This document shows positions 196 through 60,567 of a stretch of DNA of 64,000 nucleotides, in pieces. The stretch is taken from NCBI GenBank assembly GCA_022826665.1, contig JAJDUK010000063.1, forward strand, positions 1 to 64,000. Direction: 5' to 3'. The position numbers and the translations under genes are program-made. The first letter of the stretch is position 1; each line of letters begins with the position of its first letter. The notes below the pieces were generated by a model. It made no database searches. It was not told the origin of the DNA and was given only the letters and a program-made list of their open reading frames with translations. The stretch comes from Alphaproteobacteria bacterium (GTDB lineage: Bacteria > Pseudomonadota > Alphaproteobacteria > UBA828).

Positions 196-1670
196 GTTAG
201 CCCCAATACTGTTCACTTGATGACTTTGATGCTGTTGACGGGATTGACGGCAGGACGAGGAGGGGTGTCGGGCCGGCGCAGTGGGAACTTGCTCAGTTTT
301 GCGTTTGACGGCGCGCGGGTTTTGCCGGTTTCGACTGGAGACAACACGTTCCTGAAGGATTTCGTCGAGGACGGCGTCATGGAAGGCCTTGCTCTTCCGA
401 GGGGGGGATGGCTATGGCGGCGGGCAGCTTTCGCCGCACCACGCGCACGGCGTGAAGGAAGGAGAGCCGGTCCGGGTCTTCGTCGGCTCTCAGCGCCGCC
501 TCGTGGATCAGGCTTCGGATGGCGAAGTGCGCCATCATGAGGCCATAGAACTCCTGGCGGACGAGGTCCGGCGTCTTGCTGCGCAGGACGATCCTGGCGC
601 CCCGCAGATGGGTCTTGAGTTCGTCGAGGGCGGTCTCGATTTCCCAGCGCTCATGATAGAGGGCCGCCAGCTCATGCGCTGGCGCCACGTCGTGGTCGAG
701 GATCGTGGTGAGCAGCCGATAGAACGGTTCGGCGCCGCCGACACCCTCCAACCGGTAGTCGATCGCCCGCACCGTGAGCCCGCCGCTCCGGTGGCGGCGA
801 TCCCGTTCCGAGGGATAGATCGTGCTCAGGTAAGAGCCGTCGGGCAATCGCCGGTCGGGGACCAGGCGCATGTTCTTCCTGACGCGCCAGAGCAGGTCGG
901 CCCCGCTGCCGCACGCCAGGGACCACAGCGCGAAGCCGAAGAACTGGCGGTCCGCCAAGCACAGCATGCCGGCCTCCAGACGGCCGAGCACGGCTTTGGC
1001 GAGCGCGATCTCGCTCGTCCCATAGCCCGCCATCTCGCTGGCAAACAGCACATGCGTACCGTTCTCCACCAGCGAAACGAAGCGCAACTGCGGGAAGGCG
1101 CTGCGGCCCCGGCTGGCGCCGGGCCGGCCGAACGCTGCGGCGTTCGACGCCTCGTCGGCAACGTCGAGGGTGCTGCCGTCCAGGCTCACCAGACGCCAGC
1201 GCCCATACCACGCCCCCCAGGTCACCCGATCCGCAATCGGCTTCACAACCGCGCCATGCAGACGGTGCAGCGGCTCCCAGCCAAGACGCGTGCGCGCCTG
1301 CGAGATCCCCGACTTGCCGGCCACCTCAAGCGCCTGCGACGGACCGGCCAGCCACTGAACCCCCTCCAGCAAGCAGCGCAGAACCTCGCGGTAGGACGAG
1401 TGCATGTAGAGCGCAAGCGCGATGACGTAGTACACCACCACAGGCGACGGAAGCGCGCGCCGGCGCTGGCTCGACCGCCCGGTATCCCGTAGAACAGACT
1501 GCACCGTATCCAGCGGAAACGTCTTCGCGATCACACCCAGACTGATGTAGTCGGTGACGCGAGAACCCGCCGGGAGAGCCCCAACAGTGCGTGACATCGC
1601 CCTGACCCCTGCTGCGTTCACAGGCCCGCGACCATAGCATCAATCCCTAAGTGATCAGTATTGGGCTAGC
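196..1670 (-). mobile_element. IS4-family insertion sequence, apparently complete (about 1.47 kb)
   Basis: Imperfect terminal inverted repeats flank a single intact transposase gene. The left copy (196-218) and the reverse complement of the right copy (1649-1670) share CCCAATACTG followed by TCACTT, with one substitution and one inserted base upstream. The element is about 1.47 kb, which is normal for the IS4 family. I could not identify a convincing target-site duplication, so the exact outer bases are uncertain by a few positions. The element sits between the ISKra4-like tail and the integrase gene. Confidence 0.75.
377..1621 (-). CDS. IS4-family transposase
   Basis: This 414-residue protein catalyses transposition of the element around it. 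The N-terminal third resembles the IS4-type N-terminal domain. The DDE residues fit the IS4 pattern: D in SLDGSTLDV, D in CLADRQFF, and the late Y-R-E-K signature in YHERWEIETALDELK. Length and residue order are normal for the family, with no internal stop or frameshift, so the gene is probably functional. The ATG at 1609 (MSRTVG) lies 12 bases upstream of the alternative at 1621 and cannot be ranked against it by sequence alone. Confidence 0.9.
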   Translation of the reverse strand: MNAAGVRAMSRTVGALPAGSRVTDYISLGVIAKTFPLDTVQSVLRDTGRSSQRRRALPSPVVVYYVIALALYMHSSYREVLRCLLEGVQWLAGPSQALEVAGKSGISQARTRLGWEPLHRLHGAVVKPIADRVTWGAWYGRWRLVSLDGSTLDVADEASNAAAFGRPGASRGRSAFPQLRFVSLVENGTHVLFASEMAGYGTSEIALAKAVLGRLEAGMLCLADRQFFGFALWSLACGSGADLLWRVRKNMRLVPDRRLPDGSYLSTIYPSERDRRHRSGGLTVRAIDYRLEGVGGAEPFYRLLTTILDHDVAPAHELAALYHERWEIETALDELKTHLRGARIVLRSKTPDLVRQEFYGLMMAHFAIRSLIHEAALRADEDPDRLSFLHAVRVVRRKLPAAIAIPPSEEQGLP

Positions 1671-1902
1671 CCGCCTTTCCCACCATAGTCATGACCGTGA
1701 CCCTGGTGAGAAACTACAGTTATATGTCTTGCCTCCTGATAGACTGACGTGGCTGGAGTTGTCTAAACGTCGAAATAATAATGGGTTATTTGACATTGAT
1801 CCCATCAAGAGCAATCTGGAGGTATCAGGAATGGGGCCAAATTGACTCTACCGTGTTGTGGGAGGTGTTGATTTTGATCGCGCGCCATGCCATCATGTCT
1901 CC

Positions 1903-3168
1903 ATGGCAAATCCCGGAAAACGCGTCGCCCGCGTCAAGCTCACCATCGCAAGGCGCGCCATCGACAACCTTGAGCCCGCAGAGAAGCCCTGGATCGCCTG
2001 GGACGACAGGCTCACCGGCTTCGGCGTCCTGGTGCATCCCTCGGGCGTCAAGTCCTTCATCGTCAACTATCGCCTCGGCTCAGGTGGCAGGTCGGCGCCC
2101 AACAAGCGGCTCGTCATTGGACGCTGCGACAGGTTAGCGCCCGAGCACGCACGGCGCGAGGCGCACAGGCTGCTCGGCATGGTCGCCATGGGCGAGGACC
2201 CAGCGGCCGAGCGCGCCAGGAGCCGCCGCATGCCGCCTCTCAAGCAGGCCTTCGAGGACTACATGAAGGCCAATCCCAAGCGGAAGTCGAGCACGAACGA
2301 GAACTACCGCGATCGCTTCGAGCGGCCTCTCGCCGACTGGCTTGCCCGTCCGCTCGACTCCATCACCCGCAGCGACGTGGAGGACCGCTTCAACCGCATC
2401 ACTGAGCAGCGCGGCTGGGCGACCGCCAACCAGTGCATCTCTCTGCTGCGCTCGGTGTATCGTCGGCCCTGCGTTGATTTTGAGGGGTTGGCCAATCCCG
2501 TCGATCTTTGGCTCGCGGGGGGCGGCAGGTTCCACCACAAGCCGCGCCGCAAGATCCCGCCGCCTGCCGAGATTCTGCCTTGCTGGCGGAGGGGCATCGA
2601 GGCGGTGGTGAGCAACCCCGCCATTCGGGACGTGTTCTGGTTCGGGATGTACACCGGCATGCGGCGCGGCGAGGTGCTGCCGCTTCGGTGGGATCGTGTA
2701 GACAGGGAGGCAGGGGTCTTCCGTGTGGACGAGACCAAGACCGGGGCGCCGCTGGAGCTGCCCATCACCCGGCAGCTGGCAGCCATTCTCGATCGCCGGT
2801 GGGCCGAGAGCGGCCATCTGGAAGGGGGCTGGGTGTTTCCCTCGGCCACCAGCCGCACGGGCTATTTCGTGAAGCTGACCTATTTCCATCGCCGCATCAG
2901 TGAGGCCGGCGGCGCGAAGTTCTGGTTCCACGGGATGCGCAACTGCTTCATCACGGTGGCGGAGCGCGAGTTGATGCTGCCGCACGCGCTGACCAAGCGT
3001 CTGGTCAATCATGCGCCACCCAACGACGTCACAGAGGGATATGCTGCCGACTGGACGATCGGGCAGCTGCGCGAGCCCGCTCAGCGCATCGCAGATTGCA
3101 TCGAAGGGTTGATGAAGGGAGATTCGGGGCACGTCAACGGCAAGATGGAGGCGCAGGCGGCGTCATAA
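1903..3168 (+). CDS. P4-type tyrosine recombinase (integrase)
   Basis: A site-specific integrase of about 421 residues that would insert and excise an accessory island. It has an N-terminal DUF4102-like arm (MANPGKRVARVKLT), a central core-binding region and a C-terminal catalytic domain. Catalytic residues are visible: R in TGMRRGE, K in DETKTG, H-x-x-R in FHGMRN, a second H in LVNHAPP and the nucleophile in EGYAAD. The start at 1903 was chosen because the family N-terminus begins there; the frame stays open upstream to 1858. No tRNA gene is visible beside it, so the attachment site is unclear. It lies just upstream of the three-gene candidate defence operon and may have delivered it. Confidence 0.92.
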   Translation: MANPGKRVARVKLTIARRAIDNLEPAEKPWIAWDDRLTGFGVLVHPSGVKSFIVNYRLGSGGRSAPNKRLVIGRCDRLAPEHARREAHRLLGMVAMGEDPAAERARSRRMPPLKQAFEDYMKANPKRKSSTNENYRDRFERPLADWLARPLDSITRSDVEDRFNRITEQRGWATANQCISLLRSVYRRPCVDFEGLANPVDLWLAGGGRFHHKPRRKIPPPAEILPCWRRGIEAVVSNPAIRDVFWFGMYTGMRRGEVLPLRWDRVDREAGVFRVDETKTGAPLELPITRQLAAILDRRWAESGHLEGGWVFPSATSRTGYFVKLTYFHRRISEAGGAKFWFHGMRNCFITVAERELMLPHALTKRLVNHAPPNDVTEGYAADWTIGQLREPAQRIADCIEGLMKGDSGHVNGKMEAQAAS

Positions 3169-3464: not shown

Positions 3465-4691
3465 ATGGTTGTGCCTCTAATGATCAGTAGCAAGGACGAC
3501 GACCTGGTCGGCGTCGCCCGCCGCTCCGACCCGCTGGGGTTGCTCGCGGTGTGGTCCGCCCGCGCCCGTGAGGCGGTGCCCCATCTGACGGAACAAACGA
3601 CGGAAGTACGCGGATTCCAGATTCTGGTTGAGGCGTTCCGGCTTTGGACCATCTTTGTGAACAGGGAGCCGCACCCCCCCGAGCGGCTCATGCAGTTCTT
3701 CATGCTCGTCGAGCAGGCGTTCGCCCGCACGGTCGGCTGCCGAGATGGCGACTGGCCGCTGCCGGGCGCACGACGCGTGAGGTCCCGCTTGGGCGAAATC
3801 CCTTGCGTCTCGGTGGCGGATGACAGGTGGCACCTTCTTGGAGGTCAGTTGGTCAACGGGATCTGGGGGCTCTACCGAGGCGCGGCCCGACGGGCGGGGC
3901 TGTTGGACGCCAATATGGCCTGGCTATCCGACGACACATTGGCGGCGGCGTCCGCCACCTCTTGTCTGCGCGACGCCGCTCTTGAACGGTTCCTCGGACT
4001 GATTGGGCGAGCAATGGACCGTGAAACCGTCGTCTTGCCCACCGACGGAAGGAATGCGCTCCCGAGCGTGCTGCGCAGGACGTTCGACGAGGTTCCGCTC
4101 AGAAGTCATCTCCGGGAAAGGCTCATCGACGGCCACGCTCTGAACCAGGCGCTCGCGAACAGGCTGGTTCCTTTGGAGCAGCTGAACCACCGGGAGTTTT
4201 TCAAACTGGCGGCGCTGGAACTCGGGGAACACAGCCCGGTACTGAATCGGATGATCGACTGCGAAAACCTGCTCGTAGTCCTGGAGGGTATCTTCTACCG
4301 ATTGTGTTGCGCCAAGGGCGAGTCGATCGAGGCGCTAGCGGAGTCTTTACCCGTGCATATGGGGGAGATTCAGAATGCCGGGGAGGCGTTTGCGGGTTCC
4401 GGCACGTACACGGGAGAGGCGGCAGGGAAAAGAGAGGCCCGGTTGTACGAGACAGTTGACACATCCAGCCGCGTAAGGCTCGCACGCTCCGTGTTGTCGC
4501 TACACCAAGCGGTAAGCGAAGAACGCCAACGCGCTGCCTGGGTGTGGGAAGATCAAGGGAAATTGCGGAGCGACGTCGACGTCGCGGAGCCAGATGAAGC
4601 CGATCTGAAAGTCGGACTGGCGTGGCGCAACGACTACTACCTGCGACCGCTGTCCAGCATCGCCCGGCAACTCGAGGAACTCGGGACTTGA
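3465..4691 (+). CDS. Unknown protein, first gene of the helicase/PLD operon
   Basis: A 408-residue soluble protein that I do not recognise with confidence. The N-terminus contains RRSDPLGLL and then a region ending LTEQTTEVRGFQILVEAFRLW. From memory this layout loosely recalls the DUF6361-type accessory proteins that sit beside PLD and helicase genes, but the match is weak. No nuclease, ATPase or membrane motif was found. Its stop codon overlaps the TTG start of the PLD gene (TTGA), so the two are translationally coupled. A GGGGGA purine run lies about 9 bases before the ATG at 3465. Its fixed position before a nuclease and a helicase suggests a recognition, adaptor or effector role. Confidence 0.8.
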   Translation: MVVPLMISSKDDDLVGVARRSDPLGLLAVWSARAREAVPHLTEQTTEVRGFQILVEAFRLWTIFVNREPHPPERLMQFFMLVEQAFARTVGCRDGDWPLPGARRVRSRLGEIPCVSVADDRWHLLGGQLVNGIWGLYRGAARRAGLLDANMAWLSDDTLAAASATSCLRDAALERFLGLIGRAMDRETVVLPTDGRNALPSVLRRTFDEVPLRSHLRERLIDGHALNQALANRLVPLEQLNHREFFKLAALELGEHSPVLNRMIDCENLLVVLEGIFYRLCCAKGESIEALAESLPVHMGEIQNAGEAFAGSGTYTGEAAGKREARLYETVDTSSRVRLARSVLSLHQAVSEERQRAAWVWEDQGKLRSDVDVAEPDEADLKVGLAWRNDYYLRPLSSIARQLEELGT

Positions 4692-6589
4692 GTAGCCTGG
4701 GCACGATCCGTGAGCGCATTGAGCGGGCTACGGGCTACTTCGCACGTCGCGAGGCCACGGTGCTCACTACATTCAACCTCAACGGCCGATTCCTCGAAGA
4801 GCAGGCACTGCCAGCGATTCTCGGCGTCGATGGCGCGCTTGCAGCCGTCCGGCACGCCGACCTGCATGGGCAATTGGCGGAGACGGAATGCACGGTCTTC
4901 TACGACCCCACGGTGGCGCCCGGTGTCTCCGGTAAGTTCCGCTACGTCGCCCGGCCCGTTCCGCTGCGCGCTCGTCTGTTCCATCCGAAACTGGTGATCA
5001 TCGCTGGAATATCCAAGGACGGGACGACCTGGGTGTATCTCGCCGTCTCGTCCGCGAATCTCACGTTGTCCGGCTGGGGACGCAACGCCGAGTCCTTCGG
5101 CGAGACGTGGATCCATACCAGGACTCAACAGACTTGGCATGGCCTTGATGGGTTCCTGGCGTGGCTGCAGGACTACGCAAACCTGGGCGGAGAGCCCGAC
5201 CGCCGGGATGCCGTGGCGGTTGTTCGAGAGGCGCTCGACCGGATGCCCAGCGGTTACCGATTCCGCGACGATGGCACGAAATTTTGGTCTGGCACTTTAG
5301 GCGCGCGTTTCTACTCGTCCGTGGTCGATACGGGGGGCTTGCCGACATTCCTCAAGATGGGTCGTTCACGTAGGCCGGCAGAACTTTGGGTGTACAGCCC
5401 ATATTGGGGCAGCGTCGCGGAGATGGTCGGCGAATTCGGCGCAAAAAGGACGGTCCTCGTTCCCGCCATGCGCGCCGATCGCAAAGCGATTGGGTTGTCG
5501 AAGAGCCAGCACGATACCGTCAAGGACATCGCCGAGGTTTGGCGCAACGAAAGCGAGAAGCAGGACGATCGCTTCTGGCACATGAAGGCATACTGGATTC
5601 GCCATGGGGAGCGCTTTTACACCAGCGTTGGAAGCTGCAACTTCACGGAGGCCGGACTCGCCGGCGCGAACGGCAACGTCGAAGCCATGCTCGTATTCGA
5701 GAACATGGAGCCCGATTGGCCTGAGGAAAGCGACACCGCCCGCCTGGAAGACCTTTCCGATCAATCGGCCGATGAAGAGGACGCGCCGGAGCCCGTTCCC
5801 GTGGTCATCGTCGTGGCATACGACTGGCGGTCGGAAAGCTGGCGTTGGTTCCTGGCCGCGGACGACTCGCAGGATGACTTCCGCCTGTCGCTGCCTACTG
5901 GCCGCGCCGCTTTCCGTATCGACCCGGGTTCTGGCGATCGCCGGGGCGATCCCCCGAGCTTCCCCGCACACTACCGAGTCACCTACACTCAGCACGCGGA
6001 ACGCAGGGAGTGGCAAGGGCAGGTCGTCGAACTCCACCTGGACCATACCCGACGAACCTACGGCAAACCCCTCTCGGCAAATGACATTCTCGAGAGCTGG
6101 CGCGTCCACGCGAAAACTGGGAGTCCCGGACCCCGGGGCGGTGGGGGCAACGGCAATGAGAACGGCGACGACCCGCAAGCCGAGGTACCGGCGGCTTTCG
6201 ATGCGGTGAACCTCTACGACCTATATCGCGCTATGCGAGCCTTGCGAACGCGACTCGGCGAACTCGAGACAGAGCCGCAGGCGCAGCGGGCGTTGCTGGT
6301 GGGACGGTCCGACAGTGTCGTGGCGCTTGCGCGCCTCGCCGATGGCGACGGCGAAGCCCCGGTTGTCCGGTACCTGGTGCTGCGCGAGTTGTCCAGCATC
6401 GTGGCGGACTGCAAGGGATCCTCATTGCACGGCGACCCCTTGCGCCGTGTGCGCGAGATGAAGCGCCGAGCGAAGGCGACAACGCTGAAACAGCTTGCTG
6501 CCGAGTTAAGGGGCGACCGGGAGAAAGCACGGAGGGTGCTGGACTGGTTCGAGAGGCGACTTGCGAAAATGGATCGTGCTGGAAGATGA
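4688..6589 (+). CDS. PLD-family nuclease with two HxK motifs
   Basis: About 633 residues. Two phospholipase-D-type phosphodiesterase motifs are visible: FHPKL near residue 99, followed by SSANLTLSGWG, and WHMKAYW near residue 298, followed by SVGSCNFTEAGL. Paired HxK...N motifs form the active site in PLD-superfamily nucleases such as DISARM DrmC and helicase-associated PLD proteins. An Asp/Glu-rich linker, a glycine-rich stretch and a charged helical C-terminus follow. I chose the TTG at 4688 because it overlaps the upstream stop as TTGA, has a GAGGAA ribosome site, and the residues just after it look like the domain start. The stop overlaps the next start (ATGA). It probably cuts or processes nucleic acid together with the helicase. 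Confidence 0.88.
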   Translation: MSSLGTIRERIERATGYFARREATVLTTFNLNGRFLEEQALPAILGVDGALAAVRHADLHGQLAETECTVFYDPTVAPGVSGKFRYVARPVPLRARLFHPKLVIIAGISKDGTTWVYLAVSSANLTLSGWGRNAESFGETWIHTRTQQTWHGLDGFLAWLQDYANLGGEPDRRDAVAVVREALDRMPSGYRFRDDGTKFWSGTLGARFYSSVVDTGGLPTFLKMGRSRRPAELWVYSPYWGSVAEMVGEFGAKRTVLVPAMRADRKAIGLSKSQHDTVKDIAEVWRNESEKQDDRFWHMKAYWIRHGERFYTSVGSCNFTEAGLAGANGNVEAMLVFENMEPDWPEESDTARLEDLSDQSADEEDAPEPVPVVIVVAYDWRSESWRWFLAADDSQDDFRLSLPTGRAAFRIDPGSGDRRGDPPSFPAHYRVTYTQHAERREWQGQVVELHLDHTRRTYGKPLSANDILESWRVHAKTGSPGPRGGGGNGNENGDDPQAEVPAAFDAVNLYDLYRAMRALRTRLGELETEPQAQRALLVGRSDSVVALARLADGDGEAPVVRYLVLRELSSIVADCKGSSLHGDPLRRVREMKRRAKATTLKQLAAELRGDREKARRVLDWFERRLAKMDRAGR

Positions 6590-9500
6590 CGCCGTTCACC
6601 GACCCCATTACCCCCGATGACGTTGTGGAACTGATCGACTTCACGGTTGCCGATCGGGAAACGGAATCGATGGCCCGGATGCAGCGCGAAGGCGTCGCGG
6701 CGCTCTACAACATCCTGTGCAAGGGTCCGGTCGCCTACCTTGCCGACGAGGTCGGCATGGGCAAGACGTACCAGGCGCTGGGGCTGGCCGCGCTGACGTG
6801 GAATCAGAAGCCGGGCGCACGCATTCTGTTCGTCAGCCCACGCCAGAACCTGCAGGAGAAATGGGTCGACGACTACAAGGGGTTCTTCGCCTCTAACTAC
6901 CGTCGCCAGCAGAAGATGGGCGATGACCGTGTCACCTCCGTGCTGTTCGGCGAGCCGGTCCACCGCCCCGTCGCCTTCGACAACCTGAGGAGCTGGACGC
7001 CGACGATCAGCATGCCGGAACAGATCGCCCCGTTCCTACGCCACACCAGCTTCATGCGACCGGTGTTTGTTGGTTCCGGCGAGCTGACCGGAGACATGGA
7101 TCAGCTATGGCGCCACTGGCGGGACCGATTTGAGAGCTGGACGCTCTTCGAGTCAAGACGACCGAGAGGGCTTTCGCCGGACAACGCATCCCGCGAACTG
7201 AATATCGCGTTTGCCCGAGCACTGAACGCAAAGCTCACCGCAGAGGCGCCATGGGGCGAGCCGTACTTCGACCTTGTCGTCGTGGACGAAGCCCAGTGTC
7301 TTCGCAATCCGGACAACCAAACCAATAGCGTGCTCTACGAGGCACTGAATTGTCAGGTCGCCAAGTGGTTGTTCATGAGTGCGACCCCGGCCCACGGCGG
7401 TCCAGGCGACATCCCGAGGATCGTCAACAAGTACCCGAATTGCGGGGAAATCCTTGATTGTGGGCTTACCAGCGACCTCGGAGAAATGCAGAAGGCGCTG
7501 GGGGACTTCATGGTCCGCCGCCAGCGGCGGTATCTCGCGAAGAATCGGCCGACCATGGTCTGCAAGAGCGAGTACCGGGACCACGACAGAAAGCGCTGGG
7601 CCGTCGAAGGGGCGGACATGTCCGCTTTAGGCACGTTGGCCATGGGCCTGGTCCAGAAAGGTCTGGTCGATGTCCTCGCGAGCCGCAACAACCGCTATCG
7701 AATCGGTTTCCTGTCGTCGTTCGAGAGCCTGCAAAGCTCGATTCGGCCCGTTGAAACAACCGCGGACTTCGAACACGACCACACGCAGGGATCGTTGCCC
7801 CACGCGGCGGACGGCAGCGTCGAGCGAGATGCCCCGGATGCGGGGTTCATCGACGAATTGACGTCGGACTTCCAGAGGCGCTTTGACATGCCGTTGCCTC
7901 ACGCCAAGGTCGACTCGGTCGTTGATCGGATAGCGCCTCTCGCGTTCGGTTCGGACGAGGAGGTGGGCGGCCACAAGTTCCTGGTCTTCGCCCGCCGCGT
8001 GAGCACCGTCCACACGCTGTGCGACCGGCTTGCCCAACGACACCGGCTGGCCGTCGAGGGGAGAATGCGCCGGTGCTGGAACGCCCAAGAGTTCGACTGG
8101 GCCGGGAACGACGTGGGCCACGAGGACGTAATCGACGGTGAAGACGCCGCGGACAGTGAGTCTCACGAAGACGCCCCGGGAGACGATCCTCTCCGGAGGG
8201 CGACGGCGAAGGGGGGCTGGCTCCACCGCTATCGGCAGACCTTCCGGGCAACCGGCCGAAACTCGCTGTTCTTCGAAGACGGCTGGCTGGAACGCCTGTG
8301 CCGGGCGGGTGGCGTGGACCCGATGGACGCCGCAGAGGCAATACCAGACGATATCTGGGCGGAGAGTTGGACCCATGCGGGCAAGGCTGCGGGTAGCGGA
8401 CGCCAGTACCGGGCAAACAGGCTGCGGTATCTTGCGGTACAAAGCCTTCGACGGGTACCCGAGGCATTTGGACTGAGCAAGGCGAGTGCCGAGCCATGGC
8501 GGGTCGCCTACGAGACCTGCCTTCACAATCACCTGGAGGAGGCCAAGCCCAATGCTGAACCGCACCGCGTCCACGATCTTTTCAACTGGCCCACCCTATG
8601 GACAAGGTGGGATTCCACTTTCGCCGGCAAGTGCCTAGCCCTTCCCGCGGACGATCCTGCCTGCGTCCGGGGCGAGGCTGGACGCGACGAGCTTTGCCGC
8701 CGACAGGCAGCGCGGACGATCCTCGGACAGACCTTCCGGCTCACCGACACCCTGCTCGACCTCTACTTCGCGGACGAAGCCGTTGGGAAGTCGAGCCACG
8801 AATTGGCCGAACGGTTTCTGCGTTGGTTGAAGTCCGACGACCCCGGCGCGGCGCAAGTCCGCAACGACTGTGTGCAATGGCTCGAACACCTTCGCCTTAT
8901 CGTGGATGGTTGCCTGGACGGGGCCGGTCGCCCTTGGCACGAGCTGGTCCATGAACAGGAGGAGACGTGGGCGCAGCTCTTCGAATCCGGGCCTGTGCTT
9001 GGCGTGACCGGTGGGTCCGGAGGACATCGCAGGGCGGTCCGCCAGTTCAGGACGCCGTCACTACCCCGCGTGATCGTCTGCACGGACACACTGAAGGAAG
9101 GCGTCGACCTACATCTGTTCTGCGATCACGTCCTGCACTACGGGGTCGCTTGGACGTCGGGCGACATGGAGCAGCGGGTCGGGCGCGTGGATCGCTACTT
9201 CTCGCAGATCGAGCGTCGATTGGCCGGTGAAGGTCCGCCGCCAGACGTGAAGTTGCACGTTGGCTATCCCCATGTCGTCGCGTCCTTGGAGCGCGGACAG
9301 GTCGAGCGTGTCATCCAGCGGCAGAGAGACGTGGAAGCGCTGATGGACTCACCGCTCGCCGGGACAGGAGACGACGAACGTGAGCTAGGGGAAGATGCGA
9401 GTGTTCGTCTGCCGAGTGGCCGACAAGACAGGCAGCCCTTCGGCGAGTTGCGCTTCCCGAACCGGCGGCGGAGCATCGCTGCCGTTTCGAACCGCGCCGC

Positions 9501-10320
9501 CGGGGCCGACAGGGAGCACTATCTGAGTTGGTACGGAGCGCTTCGCCGAAAGCTCGCTGAACGACATTGGCGCATCGGAGGCGACGGAAACATGGTGGGG
9601 GATGTCGCCCAGCCGGCTCGCCGTTCGACGCTCTTGCTTGAACGCGAGGAGCGCCAACACGAAATCGAGTGGAATTTCGACGCAGCGCTGAGACGCTACG
9701 TCATCACGTTGGCGAGCCCGCCGTGGCCCACCGACGCGATGTTCAGCGGCGGGGAACGCCGCCGTATCGTAGGCCGGGAGCGCCTGTGTCAGAGCTTCGT
9801 GCGTCTGCTCGTGCCCACGCCGGATGAAGGAGCGGATGAAACTGTAGTTACGGGCCTGATCGACGTCTTGGAGGGCGTCGCGCCAAGAGCGAACGCTGGC
9901 GCCGACGCGTTCTGGGGCGAAGCGTTCGCGGCACTATCTTCTGAAACCGTCGATTGGGAATCGGATAACAAGGCAAGGCTCACGGTTCGGCGCGGCGAGA
10001 GGGCCCAACGAGTGACGGTCTATGCTTACGAGGGAAGCGTACGTGCCGTGAGCGTGGTCTCAGCAACGCCCGACAGACTCGGACACCGAACCGGATGGGC
10101 GCAACCGCCGTCGCCCGAGGACTTACGGGAGTGGATTCTGGACGCCAACAACGAACTCCCGTTGGGATATCTGGACTTGCATAAGCGCCACGGCCTGGTG
10201 TTCGGAATCCATGTCCTGCACGGCGACTTGTCGAGCGAGGCCCGCCGAAGGCTGCTGGAAGAGGTCGCCTGGCGGGCCGATTCGTGGGAAGCGTCCCTGA
10301 CCGGCTCAGACCGTCAGTGA
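6586..10320 (+). CDS. Large SF2 helicase of the PLD operon
   Basis: A 1244-residue superfamily 2 DNA helicase/translocase. Motif I is DEVGMGKT near residue 54, motif II is DEAQ at about 234, and motif III is MSATPAHG at about 264. The second RecA lobe shows KFLVFARR, then CTDTLKEGVDLH and QRVGRVDR (near 864), the Q/R-finger motif VI. About 350 residues separate the first lobe from motif V, so a long insertion lies between the lobes. The DEVGMGKT and DEAQ forms are typical of SNF2-like and DISARM-like helicases. The start overlaps the PLD stop (ATGA). With the two upstream genes it forms a compact operon next to an integrase, which suggests phage or plasmid restriction; that role is inference. 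Confidence 0.92.
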   Translation: MTPFTDPITPDDVVELIDFTVADRETESMARMQREGVAALYNILCKGPVAYLADEVGMGKTYQALGLAALTWNQKPGARILFVSPRQNLQEKWVDDYKGFFASNYRRQQKMGDDRVTSVLFGEPVHRPVAFDNLRSWTPTISMPEQIAPFLRHTSFMRPVFVGSGELTGDMDQLWRHWRDRFESWTLFESRRPRGLSPDNASRELNIAFARALNAKLTAEAPWGEPYFDLVVVDEAQCLRNPDNQTNSVLYEALNCQVAKWLFMSATPAHGGPGDIPRIVNKYPNCGEILDCGLTSDLGEMQKALGDFMVRRQRRYLAKNRPTMVCKSEYRDHDRKRWAVEGADMSALGTLAMGLVQKGLVDVLASRNNRYRIGFLSSFESLQSSIRPVETTADFEHDHTQGSLPHAADGSVERDAPDAGFIDELTSDFQRRFDMPLPHAKVDSVVDRIAPLAFGSDEEVGGHKFLVFARRVSTVHTLCDRLAQRHRLAVEGRMRRCWNAQEFDWAGNDVGHEDVIDGEDAADSESHEDAPGDDPLRRATAKGGWLHRYRQTFRATGRNSLFFEDGWLERLCRAGGVDPMDAAEAIPDDIWAESWTHAGKAAGSGRQYRANRLRYLAVQSLRRVPEAFGLSKASAEPWRVAYETCLHNHLEEAKPNAEPHRVHDLFNWPTLWTRWDSTFAGKCLALPADDPACVRGEAGRDELCRRQAARTILGQTFRLTDTLLDLYFADEAVGKSSHELAERFLRWLKSDDPGAAQVRNDCVQWLEHLRLIVDGCLDGAGRPWHELVHEQEETWAQLFESGPVLGVTGGSGGHRRAVRQFRTPSLPRVIVCTDTLKEGVDLHLFCDHVLHYGVAWTSGDMEQRVGRVDRYFSQIERRLAGEGPPPDVKLHVGYPHVVASLERGQVERVIQRQRDVEALMDSPLAGTGDDERELGEDASVRLPSGRQDRQPFGELRFPNRRRSIAAVSNRAAGADREHYLSWYGALRRKLAERHWRIGGDGNMVGDVAQPARRSTLLLEREERQHEIEWNFDAALRRYVITLASPPWPTDAMFSGGERRRIVGRERLCQSFVRLLVPTPDEGADETVVTGLIDVLEGVAPRANAGADAFWGEAFAALSSETVDWESDNKARLTVRRGERAQRVTVYAYEGSVRAVSVVSATPDRLGHRTGWAQPPSPEDLREWILDANNELPLGYLDLHKRHGLVFGIHVLHGDLSSEARRRLLEEVAWRADSWEASLTGSDRQ

Positions 10321-10465: not shown

Positions 10466-10653
10466 GTGCTGGACGTTTTCGAAACTTGAGGCGCGGCCAC
10501 GTTAGGGATAACTATGAACCCCGCTTTGTGAACGGAGACTTGCGCACTTCAGATTGGCGGCGGTCGACCAGACCCAACCTCTTGGCCAAGGCAAGCAGGG
10601 ACTCCTGTCACGTAGGGTTGTGCCCTTCTGCAAGGCTTGCGCACAGCAATACA

Positions 10654-11264
10654 ATGGACAAGAGCGATGACGTCGCGAGACGGAAGCACTCAATGACAAC
10701 ACGAATGCAACATTATGTGTGGAGAAAACATCTCGAAGGTTGGCAACACGGTTCTGGCCAAATTTGTTGTTCACGGAATGGGAAGGTATTCAAGAGTAAT
10801 CCAGCCAAAGTCATGAGGAAGCGTGATTACTATAGCTTGTCACGGATCACGAGAACGGACATAGCATTCCTTGATGCCATGTTTGAAATGACCAATCCAG
10901 AGCTAAAGAAAGCGCATCGGAACCTCATTGAGGTGTTGGGACACATCGCAAATGCTAATCATGCCATTCAAACATCGGGAAAAGCAACCGAGGAAGAAAA
11001 GAAATACGCAAGAGACTTGATGATAGAGACGGAAGAGAAACTCCAGACCGGCATCGAACAGCGGGCGTTACCAATATTGGAACAGCTGCGTCATGAACAA
11101 ACTGACTTTCTTTCTGATTATGAAATGGCGATGGAGTTTTTTCGGTTTGTCTCTCATCAGTATCTGAGAACGAGAGCGCTCCGGGAGCGAATCGGAGAAG
11201 AACTGAGGCACGGCCCTCTCGGGCGGAATTTTGAACACTTGAAGCACTTGGGAGTTATATACAT
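10654..11264 (+). pseudogene. DUF4238 protein, N-terminal part (split by IS1595 element)
   Basis: Residues early in the frame (MQHYVWRKHLEGW) match the opening QHYVP-type motif of DUF4238 proteins, which often occur in defence islands. The reading frame is intact up to the transposon junction at 11264, then gains a few foreign codons and stops at 11271. Removing the 11265-13739 insertion and one 8-base target copy joins this part in frame to the C-terminal part (GVIY joined to INPKHLV). The start may be 10654 or 10693. Base composition is less GC-rich than the helicase gene. The protein is first in an operon with the HEPN and PLD-like genes. Confidence 0.8.
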
Positions 11265-11334
11265 GGGTTGACTCCGCCGCTCGCGTGTGCTACACTAGTC
11301 CACACGCAAATGAGCGAAAACAAGGAGTCGACTC

Positions 11335-12315
11335 ATGGCAAAAGGTGGACCGGGAAAATATAAACGTGAAGGAATAACAGTGTTAGAATTGGCGACCTTA
11401 TTTCCTAACGAAAAAGCCGCTAAAAAGTGGTTTGAATTTGTTGTCTGGCCGGATGGCAGATTCTGCCCAAAGTGCGGCAGCGTCAACACTTACAAATGCA
11501 AGCACGCAAAGTCTCCCTACAGATGTAGGGACTGCAAGAGATATTTTTCTGTTAAATCTGGCACGGTTCTAGAGGATTCAAAGATACCTCTACAAAAGTG
11601 GGTATACGCTATATATTTAGAGGTCACGAGCCTCAAAGGCATTTCGAGCATGAAGTTGCATAGAGATATAGGCGTGACGCAGAAAACTGCATGGTTCATG
11701 TTGCATCGAATCCGCGAGGCTTGGAAGACCCAAGAATCGGGAATGTTTTATGGTCCGGTAGAAGCTGACGAGACATTTATTGGCGGTAAGAAAAGGAACA
11801 TGTCAAAAGCCAAACGCAAGGAACTAGCCAAGCAGAAAAAGATTAGACCGGACAAGGAAATAGTGGTCGGAATTAGAGGCCGCAAGACCAAAAAAGTAAA
11901 CGTCACCATCGCTAAATACCGCGACGCCAGGACCCTACAGAAGTTCGTTAGAAAGAACATCAAACAGGGATCAATGGTCTATACCGACGGAGCGGCGCAA
12001 TATATAGGTATAAAGGGAGTTGACCATGAATCTGTTAATCACAGTGTCGGCGAGTACGTTAGAGGCATGGCGCATACTAACGGGATAGAATCTTTCTGGT
12101 CCATGCTAAAGCGCTCATACACTGGAACCTATCACAAGATAAGCCCTAAACATTTAAAGCGCTATGTGAAACAGTTTGCGGGCAAGCACAATATGAGAGA
12201 GCTAGACACGATGGAGCAAATGATGCTGGTCGTAGGAATGCTAATCGGTAAAAGATTAATGTATACCAAGCTGACAAGAGATAACGGCAAAAGCTCTCAT
12301 GCTAGAAGTTATTAA
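11335..12315 (+). CDS. IS1595-family (ISXO2-like) transposase
   Basis: A 326-residue transposase. The N-terminal zinc ribbon shows CPKC near residue 44 and CRDC about 20 residues later. The ISXO2-like DDE domain shows VEADETFIGG, VYTDGAAQY and HTNGIESFWSMLKR, in which D, D and the N/E block form the family's catalytic site. It is Lys-rich with AT-leaning codon use, unlike the host genes. An AAGGAG ribosome site lies just upstream of the ATG. No stop or frameshift interrupts it, so the element may still be mobile. Confidence 0.95.
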   Translation: MAKGGPGKYKREGITVLELATLFPNEKAAKKWFEFVVWPDGRFCPKCGSVNTYKCKHAKSPYRCRDCKRYFSVKSGTVLEDSKIPLQKWVYAIYLEVTSLKGISSMKLHRDIGVTQKTAWFMLHRIREAWKTQESGMFYGPVEADETFIGGKKRNMSKAKRKELAKQKKIRPDKEIVVGIRGRKTKKVNVTIAKYRDARTLQKFVRKNIKQGSMVYTDGAAQYIGIKGVDHESVNHSVGEYVRGMAHTNGIESFWSMLKRSYTGTYHKISPKHLKRYVKQFAGKHNMRELDTMEQMMLVVGMLIGKRLMYTKLTRDNGKSSHARSY

Positions 12316-12326
12316 TCGAATAGGGG

Positions 12327-12401
12327 CGACCCCGGTGAGATTCGAACCCACAACCTCGGTCTCCGTCAAAAACCGGCTCTATCCAGTTGAGCTACGGGGC
12401 C
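12327..12401 (-). tRNA. tRNA-like gene with GAC anticodon (Val-type), inside the IS1595 element
   Basis: On the minus strand the sequence folds as a cloverleaf. The acceptor pairs GGCCCCG with CGGGGTC (one G-U pair). The D-stem is GCTC/GAGC with GG in the loop. The anticodon stem is GGTTT/AGACC around TTGACGG, giving anticodon GAC. The variable region has 6 bases. The T-arm is GTGGG-TTCGAAT-CTCAC. No CCA end is encoded. The next five bases on each side (GGGGC and GCCCC) also pair, extending the acceptor helix to 12 bp, which is odd for a normal tRNA. G37 is unusual for a valine tRNA. It may be a functional cargo tRNA or a tRNA-like structural element. Confidence 0.75.
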
Positions 12402-12488
12402 GCCCCTTTCTTTACATCTCTAATTTAGAACATATATATTTTCGGGAATCATAATGAGAAAAAGAACAAAGCTCACAAGACGGATATA

Positions 12489-12516
12489 GGGGAGGATGAA
12501 AATAATCACCCTCCCC
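12489..12516. terminator. Hairpin terminator inside the IS1595 element
   Basis: GGGGAGG (12489-12495) pairs with CCTCCCC (12510-12516) around a 14-base loop and is followed by TTAG. It sits between the rightward transposase and the leftward tRNA and secreted-protein genes and could insulate them. Confidence 0.5.
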
Positions 12517-12607
12517 TTAGTTACATTGGTGGCTTTTGCGTAGGTTTGCTACCGGGCTTGGTAGTATCGTGCAAGCGGCACCACCTCCTTTCGTCAGATA
12601 CTTATCA

Positions 12608-13063
12608 CTAAAAGAATAGGGATACAAAATAGGTATTATCTTCATCATCGAGTCGAATGTCGTACCTAACATCACTCCATTTTCTAATTTTCTTGGTTAT
12701 TCTTTGCTCGGCAAATGTAGTTGCTTTACATATACGAGCGCCGGTTTCCTCAACGTGGACAAGTGTTATGAAGCGTAACTCAAATGTTCCTGCCGAATAA
12801 TTAGCTATGTGAGCATTATCCAGACCAAAGGCCGTGATCGTGGTGAGCACTTCGTCATCTGTAGGTTCTTTTAGTAACCCTAGAGCGACTAAACTTCTAT
12901 TTTCTTCGATGATATCAAACCGAATTTCATCAAGCATTTCCAGCACGGTATCTTTCACGTCAGAACACGATGGATAATCCGCTCGCGCCTGTACAGCTAC
13001 AGTGCTGCCTAGAAAGATAGCACTAGAAAGCAGTCCATATTTTACTAGGAGAGATATTTGCAT
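12608..13063 (-). CDS. Cargo gene: small secreted hypothetical protein
   Basis: A 151-residue protein starting MQISLLVKYGLLSSAIF. It has a clear signal peptide that probably ends after AVQARA, and two cysteines in the mature part (one in PSCSDV, one in ICKATT). I chose the ATG at 13063 because it begins the signal peptide and is preceded by a hydrophilic, low-quality extension. The mature protein is acidic and ends in the aromatic tail YFVSLFF. No family was recognised. Its AT-rich codon use matches the transposase rather than the host. It may be a passenger with an envelope role. Confidence 0.7.
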   Translation of the reverse strand: MQISLLVKYGLLSSAIFLGSTVAVQARADYPSCSDVKDTVLEMLDEIRFDIIEENRSLVALGLLKEPTDDEVLTTITAFGLDNAHIANYSAGTFELRFITLVHVEETGARICKATTFAEQRITKKIRKWSDVRYDIRLDDEDNTYFVSLFF

Positions 13064-13340
13064 GACCGTTCTCCACCCCGTTAGAAGCTGGCAACGGCCC
13101 ATACCCTGGTGCCGGGCCGTTGCAAACTTCTCTTGGGATAGAGAGAGTCCCACCTATTCACCAAAGATCAGGGAGCTACCCCGATCTCGAAGCAAGGTTA
13201 TTATATTCAGTGGGCGACCCGACCAGCGGGTTTCCCAAGTAGAAGTTTGCAGGGAGTATGGTTTCAGAGAACCTTGCAATTTGCAAGGGGCAGGATTATG
13301 CTAGCGATGGCGCTAGTAAAACATTTAGAGGATGTTGGAA

Positions 13341-13502
13341 ATGAATAGAAAACCCCGCCCGATTACTGACGCAACACCAGAAGAAGTTGTAAGGTCTCTT
13401 ATAAAGCCAAACTATCCCAAAAGGCGGGAGGTAGAAGCAGACTGTAAAGAGAAGGATGAATATTTGAGTGACGAGGATTCTAATTTAGAGGATAAAGAAT
13501 AA
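13341..13502 (+). CDS. Cargo gene: 53-residue charged protein
   Basis: The frame begins MNRKPRPITDATPEEVVRSL and ends in an acidic tail; a GAGG motif precedes the ATG. The T-P-E-E-V-V-R-S-L pattern followed by a Lys/Pro-rich stretch resembles, from memory, short passenger proteins found in other IS1595 elements. A GGGGCA/TGCCCC hairpin follows the stop immediately, which supports a real transcription unit. Function is unknown; a small antitoxin or regulator is one possibility. Confidence 0.6.
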   Translation: MNRKPRPITDATPEEVVRSLIKPNYPKRREVEADCKEKDEYLSDEDSNLEDKE

Positions 13503-13503
13503 A

Positions 13504-13526
13504 GGGGCAACCACTAGGACTGCCCC
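13504..13526 (+). terminator. Hairpin after the 53-residue cargo gene
   Basis: GGGGCA (13504-13509) pairs with TGCCCC (13521-13526), two bases after the stop codon. No T run follows. Confidence 0.5.
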
Positions 13527-13647
13527 GATATAGAACTAGACTCTATCAAGTAAATAATCAACGATCCGTGGAACGATTACCAGTAACAGTTGCCAGATCA
13601 ACTTCTTGACCATTTTTTGTTTCCTTTCTTTGGTCTAGAGGTTTCTT

Positions 13648-13687
13648 GTCCCGTGGTCCCTGTCCGGCTGACTTGGGACCACGGGAC
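13648..13687. repeat. 13-bp perfect inverted repeat near the IS1595 right end
   Basis: GTCCCGTGGTCCC (13648-13660) and GGGACCACGGGAC (13675-13687) are perfect reverse complements around a 14-base loop, about 50 bases inside the right terminal repeat. It may stop transcription entering or leaving the element. Confidence 0.6.
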
Positions 13688-13739
13688 CACTTTAGCGCGG
13701 TAGTCCCGAGTTTCAAGCGGTATGTGGGGGAGTCAACCC

Positions 13740-14234
13740 ATGTATATAAATCCCAAGCACTTGGTGTGTCATTGCACAGCCGAAAATCTTGGAGCCAGCC
13801 TATTCGTGGACCGGAGTGAGTTTGAGATTCTTTTTCTGCGGAGCGGTCCAGACCACGAATTCCTAACCGGGGACCAGCCAATAGTGAACTTGTATGGCGC
13901 CATTAGCATGGATAGCCCACCCACTGAAACGGCACTATATTACCCCTTGAAGCCACATCTATCCATGATTCTACTGCCAAAGATGTGTGGACTGACTTCC
14001 ATGAAGGTTCCTCCCATCATTGTCGATCAGTTGAATATTCTCATCGCGCGGAAGGCGAGAGAATTTTTGGTAGCAAGGCGAATGGAATCACTCGAGAGAA
14101 TGAACTCCGGTTTGCAGGAAAGGCAACTGGACGATGGGCATGTATTGCTTGGGAGAATAAAGAATGTAGCGACGCGTGGAGACGAATACGAAGAAGAGAC
14201 AGCGAGCTTAGACGAGAAACTCAATACTACATAA
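13740..14234 (+). pseudogene. DUF4238 protein, C-terminal part (split by IS1595 element)
   Basis: This continues the split gene from the right target copy at 13740. It contains FLTGDQPIVNL and then PPTETALYYPL, the conserved C-terminal block of DUF4238 proteins. Joined to 10654-11264 it would give a protein of about 360 residues, normal for the family. The HEPN gene starts 20 bases after its stop. A downstream promoter, or read-through from the element, would be needed to express the following genes. Confidence 0.8.
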
Positions 14235-58521: not shown

Positions 58522-60567
58522 CTACTCTTCGATCGTTCCCATCGCCGTGCCGTCTGTAATCAGCGCGCGGCCCGCCGCGTTCGAGAGGGTCAGTGTCAAC
58601 GTCTCCTCACCTTCGTCGTGCGTGTCGTCGAGCACGTTGACCGTAACCCACTTCATCCTGTCGCCCGCGGCAAAGACGAGAATACCACTCGTCCGCGTGT
58701 AGTCCCGGCCTGCCGTCGCGTTGCCGTCGGACGTCGCGTAATCCAGCCTGATCGTCCGAGGCGCCGGCCGGCTCAGCTTGACCCGGAAGGCGAGCGACTC
58801 ACCGGTCCTCTCCCTGGCTTGGGCGTTCTCCACCGAAACCAGGACCGGACCCGGAACTGTCGCCGTCAACGTGTTCGACAGCGGACGGCCGTCTCTCGTG
58901 CAGATGGCTCCGGCAGCATCGCAGGCCCGCCCGCCGGGAAGCGCGATGGTTAGGTCGCCCCAGGATGTGGGTTTGATGTCGATTTCTCGGAAGTCGTTGC
59001 GCCCGTCGACGCGCCGCGAGGCCCGAACCGTGCCACCCCTGACCTGGAATGACTTGTCCTTGAGCACCTTGTAGCTCACCGCCGCCGCCTCGCTGAACAG
59101 GACCCGGAAGGAGAAGGCGCCCGGGGCGGGCCCCCGGTGCTCCGACGGCATGCCGACGAAGCGCGCCGTCAGCGGTGGCCGTCCCTCCGGGCTCTCCGCC
59201 CGCCCGATCAGGACGTCCGCCAGCGCTCCGGGATCGATCGTACCGGATTCGCCCCTCTCCACGGATTCCAAAACCGTGGAGAAGGTCTCCAGCAGGTCTC
59301 CCAGCGAGCCCCTCTCCGGCCGCGGCGCACGCGCGGCGTCCGTAGCGGCGAGCAGCGTCCTCGCGGCATCCGCATCGAGATAGCCCGTCGCCTCGCTGCC
59401 GCGCGACCTCTGCCACTGGCCGATTGCGTTTCGTGTGCGCCTGCCGAACAGGCCGTCCGCCGGACCGGGATCGAATCCCAGCACTGCGAGGCCTTGTTGA
59501 ATCCGCAGGCGCTCGGCGCGCTCCAGACCTAGTGCCGCTTCTACCGCTTCAGGTCCGAGCTCGGGACGCGCCGGATCACCTGCACCCGCTGCCGGGCCGT
59601 GGCCGGCTTCCGCCTCTACCGCCGTGCCGGTCAGCCTCTTCAGCCGGTTGCGTGCGAGGGCAGCAAAGGCACCGTTCGGGTAGCTGTCGAGGTAGGCCCG
59701 CAGCTCCCACGGGTTGTCGCTGTCTTTTACGGACTCCCAAAACAGCAGTTCCTGCTCCGATGCCACGCGTTGCGAGGCAACCGGCGCAGGCTCCGGCCGT
59801 GGCGCGAGATAAACCCTGCGGTTCGACAGCGAGCCGTAGACGACCGGCTCCTGTCGACCTCCGGTCGAGGCCAGAACCGCGTCGCGCACCTTGCGGAACA
59901 TCCGGCCAACCCCGAGGCCCGGCTCCTCGAGGTGGCGCAACAATGCCGCGCTGTACGGGCTGTTGCGGCCCCTACCGTCAGACGCGACCGCGCCCGCCTT
60001 CGCCGCATACGCCACCAGCGTCTCGCCCGAGGGCTCCACCGGCGCAAGCCCGCGGCCGATCGAGCGCTTCGCTCCCGCCCGTTGCATCGACGCTGCGAAC
60101 GGGCTCCTGCGGGACGCATCCAGGATCACCAACCGCAGGCCCGGCGCGCGGGCCACCGCCTGCAGGACCAGGGCCAACGGCACCGTCTCGAACTCGACGT
60201 CGGCGTCGCTCAACAGACGCGCGTCGGTCGGAACCAGAAAGTTGCGTCGGTCCACCTGAATGGCGTGACCAGTGTAGAACACCAGTGCGACCTCGGACTC
60301 CGAGGCCGCAGACGCGAACTGCTGAAGGCTGCGTCGCAGTGCTGCGTACCCCGCATTCTCTGTTCGGGTTACCGCGAAGCCGAGATGTTCGAGCACCGCG
60401 CCGATATCTTCTGCATCGTTTTGAGGGGTCGCCAGCGTCGGCGCATGTGCGTAAGCAGCGTTGCCGACCACCAGCGCCACCCGTTGGTCCGCAGCCGCTG
60501 GCGCAGAGAGGACCGACAGCAGCAGGGCCGCCGCCGCAATCAAGGATGTCAATCTGAGCACCGGCAT
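58522..60567 (-). CDS. Caspase-like exported protein with Ser in place of the catalytic Cys
   Basis: A 681-residue exported protein. After the signal (MPVLRLTSLIAAAALLLSVL) comes a C14 peptidase-like domain (VALVVGNAAYAHAPTL). The catalytic His is in FYTGHAIQVD (H101). The catalytic site is LVILDASRRSPF, with Ser152 where family members have Cys in LDACR, so it should be a pseudo-enzyme. A peptidoglycan-binding domain follows (IQQGLAVLGFDPGPADGLFG) and a Calx-beta domain lies at the C-terminus (RDYTRTSGILVFAAGD). It may bind cell wall and partners without proteolysis. Confidence 0.88.
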   Translation of the reverse strand: MPVLRLTSLIAAAALLLSVLSAPAAADQRVALVVGNAAYAHAPTLATPQNDAEDIGAVLEHLGFAVTRTENAGYAALRRSLQQFASAASESEVALVFYTGHAIQVDRRNFLVPTDARLLSDADVEFETVPLALVLQAVARAPGLRLVILDASRRSPFAASMQRAGAKRSIGRGLAPVEPSGETLVAYAAKAGAVASDGRGRNSPYSAALLRHLEEPGLGVGRMFRKVRDAVLASTGGRQEPVVYGSLSNRRVYLAPRPEPAPVASQRVASEQELLFWESVKDSDNPWELRAYLDSYPNGAFAALARNRLKRLTGTAVEAEAGHGPAAGAGDPARPELGPEAVEAALGLERAERLRIQQGLAVLGFDPGPADGLFGRRTRNAIGQWQRSRGSEATGYLDADAARTLLAATDAARAPRPERGSLGDLLETFSTVLESVERGESGTIDPGALADVLIGRAESPEGRPPLTARFVGMPSEHRGPAPGAFSFRVLFSEAAAVSYKVLKDKSFQVRGGTVRASRRVDGRNDFREIDIKPTSWGDLTIALPGGRACDAAGAICTRDGRPLSNTLTATVPGPVLVSVENAQARERTGESLAFRVKLSRPAPRTIRLDYATSDGNATAGRDYTRTSGILVFAAGDRMKWVTVNVLDDTHDEGEETLTLTLSNAAGRALITDGTAMGTIEE

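Follow-up and report, generated by a model that had tools for sequence, protein, structure and literature searches.

Among named systems, the closest counterpart of the operon described here is Azaca, whose ZacA protein is DUF6361 and whose mechanism is given as unknown in the available part of a review. In all nine annotated plasmid loci that we fetched with ZacA, the gene order is DUF6361, phospholipase D (PLD) protein and helicase, the second and third genes being of PLD and helicase size; the second gene of L107 and the third of L110 are annotated as hypothetical, yet both are matched by our family hidden Markov models (HMMs). Here we analyze a three-gene operon (A, B and C) in the genome of an alphaproteobacterium (GCA_022826665.1), located within a stretch of 64,000 nucleotides (nt), contig JAJDUK010000063.1 positions 1-64,000, forward strand, which is hereafter called the window. 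The set is already catalogued as the PADLOC candidate PDC-M27 and is undescribed in the literature searched, where we found no mention of either PDC-M27 or DUF6361; PDC is expanded as 'phage defence candidate' in the accessible text of PMC11514479. The explanation that fits best, to which we assign a probability of about 0.55, is that this is a PDC-M27 operon, sister to Azaca, which would act as a motor-coupled nuclease defence with A and a fourth component, D, as adaptors.

Operon layout and membership in PDC-M27

The three genes are as follows:

3465-4691, + strand: gene A, 408 amino acids (aa), nearly all-helical, PDC-M27A-like, remote DUF6361/ZacA relative
4688-6589, + strand: gene B, 633-aa two-half-site PLD nuclease, PDC-M27B-like, distant ZacB relative
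6586-10320, + strand: gene C, 1244-aa Snf2-type superfamily 2 ATPase, PDC-M27C-like, probably ending in a fused D domain

The TTG start of B at 4688 overlaps the TGA of A (TTGA), the ATG of C overlaps the TGA of B (ATGA), and A begins 296 nt after the end of a tyrosine integrase; both overlaps and the place downstream of an integrase agree with an earlier, sequence-only reading of this DNA. The longest open reading frame (ORF) of B opens with GTG at 4622 and would encode 655 aa; the 633-aa form aligns from its first residues with two relatives, and its numbering is used throughout. The operon is intact and probably mobile.

With the PADLOC models, A matched PDC-M27A (E 5e-10), B matched PDC-M27B (7.5e-26, ahead of ZacB at 1.8e-14) and C matched PDC-M27C (1.4e-88, ahead of ZacC at 1.9e-17, DpdE and DrmD). 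The genes follow the same order as models A, B and C, the A-B-C order of PDC-M27 being taken from the relatives described below and not from PADLOC's system rule. No NCBIfam model reached its cut-off for A, B or C. Judged by these matches, the window operon is an unusually divergent member of PDC-M27; it differs from the catalogued set in that A matches only weakly, and the PADLOC set holds no model for D. The sequence-only reading had offered the genes as a candidate anti-phage operon without a name. The first half of that proposal stands as a candidacy, the operon being conserved, with intact catalytic motifs and defence-type neighbours in its relatives; the second half does not, although the candidate to which all three proteins belong is undescribed and the match of A to it is distant.

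Relatives were sought by scanning a genome collection with an alignment of three C proteins, namely those of the window and of two loci (L004 and L005) which had themselves been found through B; A and B were not used in choosing loci. At least 590 candidate stretches were obtained, at least 281 of which encode relatives, and the best 80 were examined. The co-occurrence of the three genes in other genomes, which had been suggested as a check, was found in every locus with at least 3 kilobases (kb) upstream of C (72 of the 80), with A, B and C in this order on one strand. Taking the longest ORFs of these 72 loci, the downstream gene starts ahead of the preceding stop codon or no more than 40 nt past it at all 72 A-B junctions and at 71 B-C junctions. 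Seven of the eight short contigs show at least part of B, two of these also part of A, and the eighth has 59 nt upstream. As controls we used seven unrelated viral helicases (L088-L094, excluded from the family sets); none is accompanied by A or B, a negative that counts for just the four with more than 6 kb upstream. The distances of A, B and C correlate across 62 loci (Mantel r 0.956, 0.959 and 0.967; permuted maxima 0.177 or less), which argues that the three proteins travel as a unit. Near-duplicates, short proteins and L004 and L005 were left out of the alignments, and L029 and L071, in which C is split over ORFs, were left out of two of them.

The four components and their kinship with Azaca

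Protein C matched Helicase_C, ResIII and SNF2-rel_dom in Pfam. Its principal features are:

6745-6768, + strand: Walker A motif DEVGMGKT, residues 54-61; D54, E55, G57, G59, K60 and T61 in 71 of 71 C proteins
7285-7296, + strand: motif II DEAQ, residues 234-237; D and E in 71 of 71
8068-8985, + strand: helical insertion in RecA lobe 2, about residues 495-800; family-wide
9172-9195, + strand: motif VI QRVGRVDR, residues 863-870; Q863, R867 and R870 in 70 of 71, the other row being a gap

All three helicase motifs named in the sequence-only reading are thus present, with their core residues conserved in relatives. D234, E235, T267 and P268 are invariant together with the Walker A residues listed (71 of 71, the window counted), and the fourth residue of motif II is Q in 14 proteins and H in 57. 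That reading had also singled out a very long insertion between the lobes. It exists, lies within lobe 2, and is not special: the segment matching window residues 478-826 measures 243-419 residues in 70 of the 71 rows (348 in the window), the remaining row, L007, being cut by its contig end. On this alignment the insertion is a feature of the family, and what varies is the C-terminal tail. A structure model covering residues 25-1224 (mean predicted local distance difference test score, pLDDT, 76.5) is confident in the core and shows the lobe-2 insertion as entirely helical. Foldseek placed it nearest to the Snf2 ATPases of SWR1 and INO80 (E 2.5e-8), with ZorD of Zorya at rank 29, and a sequence search of the PDB was led by ISW1, INO80 and RapA at about 1e-12 to 1e-11 (none at 1e-15, 48 at 1e-3).

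Protein B matched PLDc_2 in Pfam (E 2.6e-8), and the two HxK motifs reported earlier, HPK at 99-101 and HMK at 298-300, are each followed by S-x-N and E:

4982-5092, + strand: half-site 1 of B, H99-x-K101, S122-x-N124, E135
5579-5683, + strand: half-site 2 of B, H298-x-K300, S316-x-N318, E332; aligns with the PLD sites of 2c1l and 7clg

The H, K, S, N and E of both half-sites are identical in all 68 aligned B proteins, the window's included. As judged from these alignments, the conservation of the catalytic residues of B and C exceeds chance. Only two PDB sequences matched B at E 0.01 or better, both through half-site 2, namely 2c1l, a 'restriction endonuclease' which we take to be BfiI (E 5e-9), and 7clg, a 'putative helicase' which is presumably SauUSI (E 5e-4). 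BfiI builds one active site from two chains. Since half-site 2 aligns with PLD sites and the H-K-S-N-E set occurs twice, a single B chain holds two half-sites. As in SauUSI, a PLD nuclease is joined with a helicase; B differs from both enzymes in having two half-sites per chain, in that the helicase is a separate protein, and in that no known recognition domain was seen.

Protein A gave no Pfam match at E 1, and no single-sequence match to DUF6361 or ZacA at that threshold in Pfam or PADLOC. All 64 A proteins, the window's included, matched PDC-M27A at E 0.01 or better and none matched ZacA at E 0.01, while SspF and LmuA were each weakly matched by one A protein. The structure model, which is of high confidence (pLDDT 89.7), is nearly all-helical. 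Foldseek yielded nothing better than E 1.3 against the PDB and E 0.67 against viral models, VIA-align reached at most Z 4.5 (83 residues), a value in the range that the tool itself rates as common, and the best PDB sequence match of the A profile was E 0.04. This lack of a structural match does not establish a new fold.

When the 64 A proteins were aligned with 12 ZacA proteins in hhalign, a probability of 78%, an E-value of 1.7e-5 and a score of 49.0 were obtained, against a best score of 23.4 among 200 column-permuted controls, 13 and 14 for reversed profiles, and 18 and 20 for A with ZacB and ZacC. (The split DUF6361 of L108 was left out of the ZacA alignment, and the unannotated L103 was omitted from those of ZacB and ZacC.) There is therefore moderate support, from profiles, for A being a remote relative of DUF6361/ZacA; the earlier statement that the first protein has no clear family is right at the level of Pfam and is modified by this profile link.

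For the other two proteins a distant relationship to Azaca was detected. B and ZacB gave 99.2% in hhalign (E 2e-19). Our family HMMs for B and C recovered every one of the 13 Azaca PLD proteins, at E 2e-7 to 9e-18, and all 13 of the helicases, at E 1.5e-4 to 2e-34. Taken by itself the helicase would be indecisive, since DpdE and DrmD reach almost the same scores as ZacC. Taken together, the A-ZacA and B-ZacB alignments, the HMM matches and the shared gene order point to PDC-M27 and Azaca as sister systems, a kinship of which we are highly confident, and by gene order and all three proteins Azaca is, on this evidence, the nearest named system. The differences are that no D domain was detected at E 0.05 in any of the 13 Azaca loci, that overall identity between Azaca and PDC-M27 is very low, and that window A lacks a single-sequence match to the Azaca protein. 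In one Azaca locus, on a Caballeronia plasmid (L108, 6001-7239), the annotation divides the DUF6361 region into three genes and leaves the PLD gene and the helicase gene each in one piece.

In many PDC-M27 loci a small ORF begins at the 3' end of C, and the products of these ORFs form one family of about 110 aa, which we call D. Two rounds of profile search in the 71 loci of the helicase tree found D as a separate gene in 27 and fused to the C-terminus of C in 17, the window included; it was undetected in 25, and the remaining two loci are truncated. In the window it corresponds to:

9991-10311, + strand: probable D domain, C residues 1136-1242; weakly YbjN/TY-chaperone-like; a separate gene in many relatives

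The first-round profile found it at E 7e-4 (whole protein), and a profile containing the window's own match gave E 2e-16 for residues 1127-1242; after rebuilding without the window, the whole protein scored 3.3e-6 and the domain (1136-1242) 2e-4. Past motif VI, the C tail measures 265-304 residues where D is separate, 372-559 where it is fused, and 90-115 in most of the D-negative loci (17 of 25); that of the window has 374, so that both the position and the length of the tail agree with a fusion. Window C thus probably carries a fused D domain, with weaker support than the other fusions have.

The separate, fused or absent state of D changes at least seven times on a quick helicase tree, so that splitting or fusion would have occurred more than once, which suggests that D and C are working partners. 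None of the PADLOC models matched any of 27 D sequences (26 separate proteins and the window domain) at E 0.1; going by these searches, D is a component that the PADLOC models miss and that is newly recognised here. Pfam YbjN weakly matched seven of nine separate D proteins scanned (E 2.7e-4 to 0.06), one of the scanned proteins also matching CesT_Tir_1, and the best PDB sequence match of the D profile was E 0.28. The available part of PMC9503650 treats YbjN and the chaperones of type III secretion as TY-chaperones that bind peptides in conflict systems; the partner of D is a helicase and not the ADP-ribose systems of that text. Eight loci have long C tails without detectable D, namely L022, L023, L025 and L026 (531-589 residues) and L046, L061, L064 and L068 (303-404 residues, L068 ending with its contig). 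In these, D may have diverged past recognition, or another module may replace it. Three of the 25 D-negative loci (L053, L068 and L081) have less than 500 nt after C.

DISARM, to which the sequence-only reading had likened the set, likewise has a helicase and a PLD protein, following the definition in the accessible text of PMC9142583. The resemblance holds for these two components and Azaca is nearer; membership in DISARM was rejected, since DrmD reached 64.5 of the 610 bits demanded and DrmC 14.1 of 133. The absence of a DUF1998 protein and a methyltransferase had been correctly noted: Pfam MZB, which we take to stand for DUF1998, had no match at E 0.01 in the whole genome (it was found in eight of 14 control genomes), and no DNA methyltransferase was seen among the 18 window proteins scanned, other window ORFs not having been scanned singly. 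The genome has several DNA methylases, and three methylase models match solely contigs other than that of the window.

Distribution and genomic surroundings

Relatives were found in taxa that include Proteobacteria, Planctomycetota, Acidobacteria, Actinomycetota, clostridia, Treponema and Flavobacteriales. B is present in one of 21 genomes of the window's family, its own, and among 398 genomes sampled from the phylum the same two were picked out by the PDC-M27B model and by the A profile, one of them again being the window's; this rarity of A and B fits a mobile, patchy trait. On the tree of 71 helicase cores, built from columns occupied in more than 60% of rows, the window forms a clade on a long stem with a Hasllibacter metagenome-assembled genome (L006) and Enhygromyxa salina (L007), with a value of 99 in the SH-like approximate likelihood ratio test. 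L006 is 61% identical to the window over C residues 1-901, and L007 47% in A, 49% in B and 55% over C residues 1-511; both of these nearest kin are cut before the tail. The sister group of this clade (97) carries very long C proteins and comprises Paraburkholderia, Desulfovibrio, Colwellia, Undibacterium and Victivallis.

In viral contigs the C profile found nine helicases, two of which (L086 and L087) have A and B; a search with B alone found no relative there, nor were relatives of ZacA found. A plasmid search gave one match to window B and three to the A of L004, and none to window A or to the A of L052. One relative sits on a mobilizable plasmid, and relatives of A sit on two conjugative Vibrio plasmids.

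The neighbours of the relatives were scanned as the nearest 114 upstream and 117 downstream ORFs of 62 loci, giving raw tallies with no matched background. Upstream, the defence-model matches among the families listed comprise Gabija-type UvrD (5), type I methylase (3) and WYL (3); downstream, single ORFs among the families listed matched DrmD, DrmA, Zorya II, type III methylase and type IV enzyme models. Occurrence beside integrases in other genomes, the other part of the suggested check, was not borne out: Phage_integrase matched two of the 117 downstream ORFs and is not among the families matched by two or more of the 114 upstream ORFs. Integrases are not regular neighbours, and the adjacency is local to the window. 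UvrD (6/114) and PDDEXK_1 (4/114) are among the commonest Pfam matches in ORFs upstream of PDC-M27, and pairs of a UvrD-helicase and a PD-(D/E)XK nuclease adjoin two Azaca loci, L104 and L110; such a pair is a possible recurring companion of both systems.

Two genes flank the window operon:

1858-3168, + strand: tyrosine integrase (Pfam Arm-DNA-bind_3 7e-13, Phage_integrase 8e-11); not a conserved part of the system
10486-11271, + strand: ORF with the N-terminal part of DUF4238 (profile positions 2-111); a neighbour outside the system

Near the integrase we found only short imperfect direct repeats, none convincing as attachment (att) sites, and an IS4-type transposase (377-1621, minus strand) adjoins it. 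A second ORF with a DUF4238 part (13722-14234, profile positions 184-279) scored below the cut-off. These two ORFs flank a low-GC (about 45%) segment, 11235-13769, bounded by a 44-nt inverted repeat (84%), so that a defence-type gene appears to have been split shortly past the end of the operon; on its own, a DUF4238 protein confers protection against T7, according to the available part of PMC9122126. The segment holds an IS1595-type transposase (11335-12315), a tRNA-Val(gac) gene (12324-12402, - strand) and a further ORF (12608-13153, - strand), and is perhaps an IS1595-family element carrying the tRNA gene as a passenger; no clear target duplication was evident on inspection. Elsewhere in the window, at 58522-60567, a protein with caspase (Peptidase_C14), peptidoglycan-binding and Calx-beta domains is encoded.

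Proposed action, rival explanations and meaning

We propose that C would move on double-stranded DNA, like Snf2-family ATPases, and would drive or license B, which would cut DNA with one complete phosphohistidine-type PLD active site made from the two half-sites of one chain. A may be a subunit for recognition or scaffolding that controls the release of B, and D may be a chaperone-fold, peptide-binding adaptor that holds the motor to A and B or binds a trigger protein. The trigger may lie in DNA ends or in a replication structure, or else be a modification or a protein. Incoming phage or plasmid DNA would be degraded with no methylase encoded in the operon. Defence against mobile DNA is in our judgement likely; that it takes the form of motor-coupled nuclease clearance of invading DNA is an even bet; and the roles given to A and D are tentative.

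Several points weigh against this reading. Every locus was retrieved with a helicase query that derived from three A-B-C loci, those examined being the best 80 of at least 281, and the defence neighbours were counted without a matched background. The Foldseek matches of C have low template modelling scores (0.25 or less by query), and the tail part of its model, D included, is mostly of low confidence. The match of A to PDC-M27A is confined to residues 238-399, and that to ZacA is moderate, covering by default 126 mainly N-terminal columns, and comes from sequence profiles rather than from comparison with a ZacA structure; its probability fell to just 8% when only three ZacA rows were used, so that alignment depth matters, and the A HMM found one of 13 ZacA proteins (E 0.011). 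D was missing from 25 of 71 loci by our searches, its window domain reached only E 2e-4 once the window was left out of the profile, all YbjN matches are sub-threshold (21.6 bits at best, where 22 are required), and for the D of the window itself Pfam gave no YbjN match. No functional data were found for any PDC-M27 member.

The same parts could serve an abortive defence, in which C, with A and D, would sense phage DNA or protein and free B as a non-specific nuclease, host and phage DNA would be destroyed and the cell would die. The sensor helicase of Hachiman releases a nuclease when DNA is damaged, according to the available part of PMC12278908; a peptide-binding D would suit a protein trigger, and with no methylase among the window proteins scanned there is no obvious self-protection in the operon. 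B, however, keeps a restriction-enzyme-like H-K-S-N-E set twice, and a large Snf2 motor with a conserved insertion looks like more than a switch, so that we regard this explanation as unlikely.

The lack of a methylase among the window proteins scanned is also what a restriction system of type IV predicts. Here A would read modified phage DNA, and B and C would act as do the PLD and helicase domains of SauUSI, the presumed identity of one of only two PDB entries that B matched. That match is limited to the shared PLD motif, and Pfam and PDB searches of A gave no known base-reading domain, which makes this explanation distinctly unlikely.

Snf2-type ATPases and PLD nucleases also act in repair, and the operon might belong to a DNA-repair or element-maintenance complex that is spread by mobile elements and is not directed against phages, as the integrase beside the window copy and the plasmid locations of relatives would allow. 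The rare and patchy occurrence in family and phylum, the defence-type neighbours and the kinship with Azaca speak against this, and we consider it quite improbable. Finally, a variant of DISARM, for which the helicase, the PLD protein and 54 bits of C to one DrmD model can be cited, is dismissed as highly improbable, given that C and B lie far below the cut-offs and score higher with PDC-M27 and Zac models, that MZB is missing from the genome and that its methylases are all on other contigs.

Returning to the PDC-M27 and Azaca kinship, a broader and frankly speculative suggestion, which we hold against long odds, is that the two form one superfamily with a DUF6361-fold sensor, a two-half-site nuclease and an Snf2 translocase, often joined in PDC-M27 by a TY-chaperone-like D that would capture a phage or partner peptide and so license the motor-nuclease. 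If true, the superfamily would combine a restriction-type motor with a switch that senses proteins. The interest of the locus lies in the link to Azaca and the overlooked D rather than in an unknown set of genes. PDC-M27, a bare catalogue entry going by our searches, gains an anatomy of three core parts and a frequent fourth, and DUF6361 would gain a much larger remote family through the PDC-M27 A proteins. Because D is free in some lineages and fused in others, the physical partner of the motor becomes directly testable.

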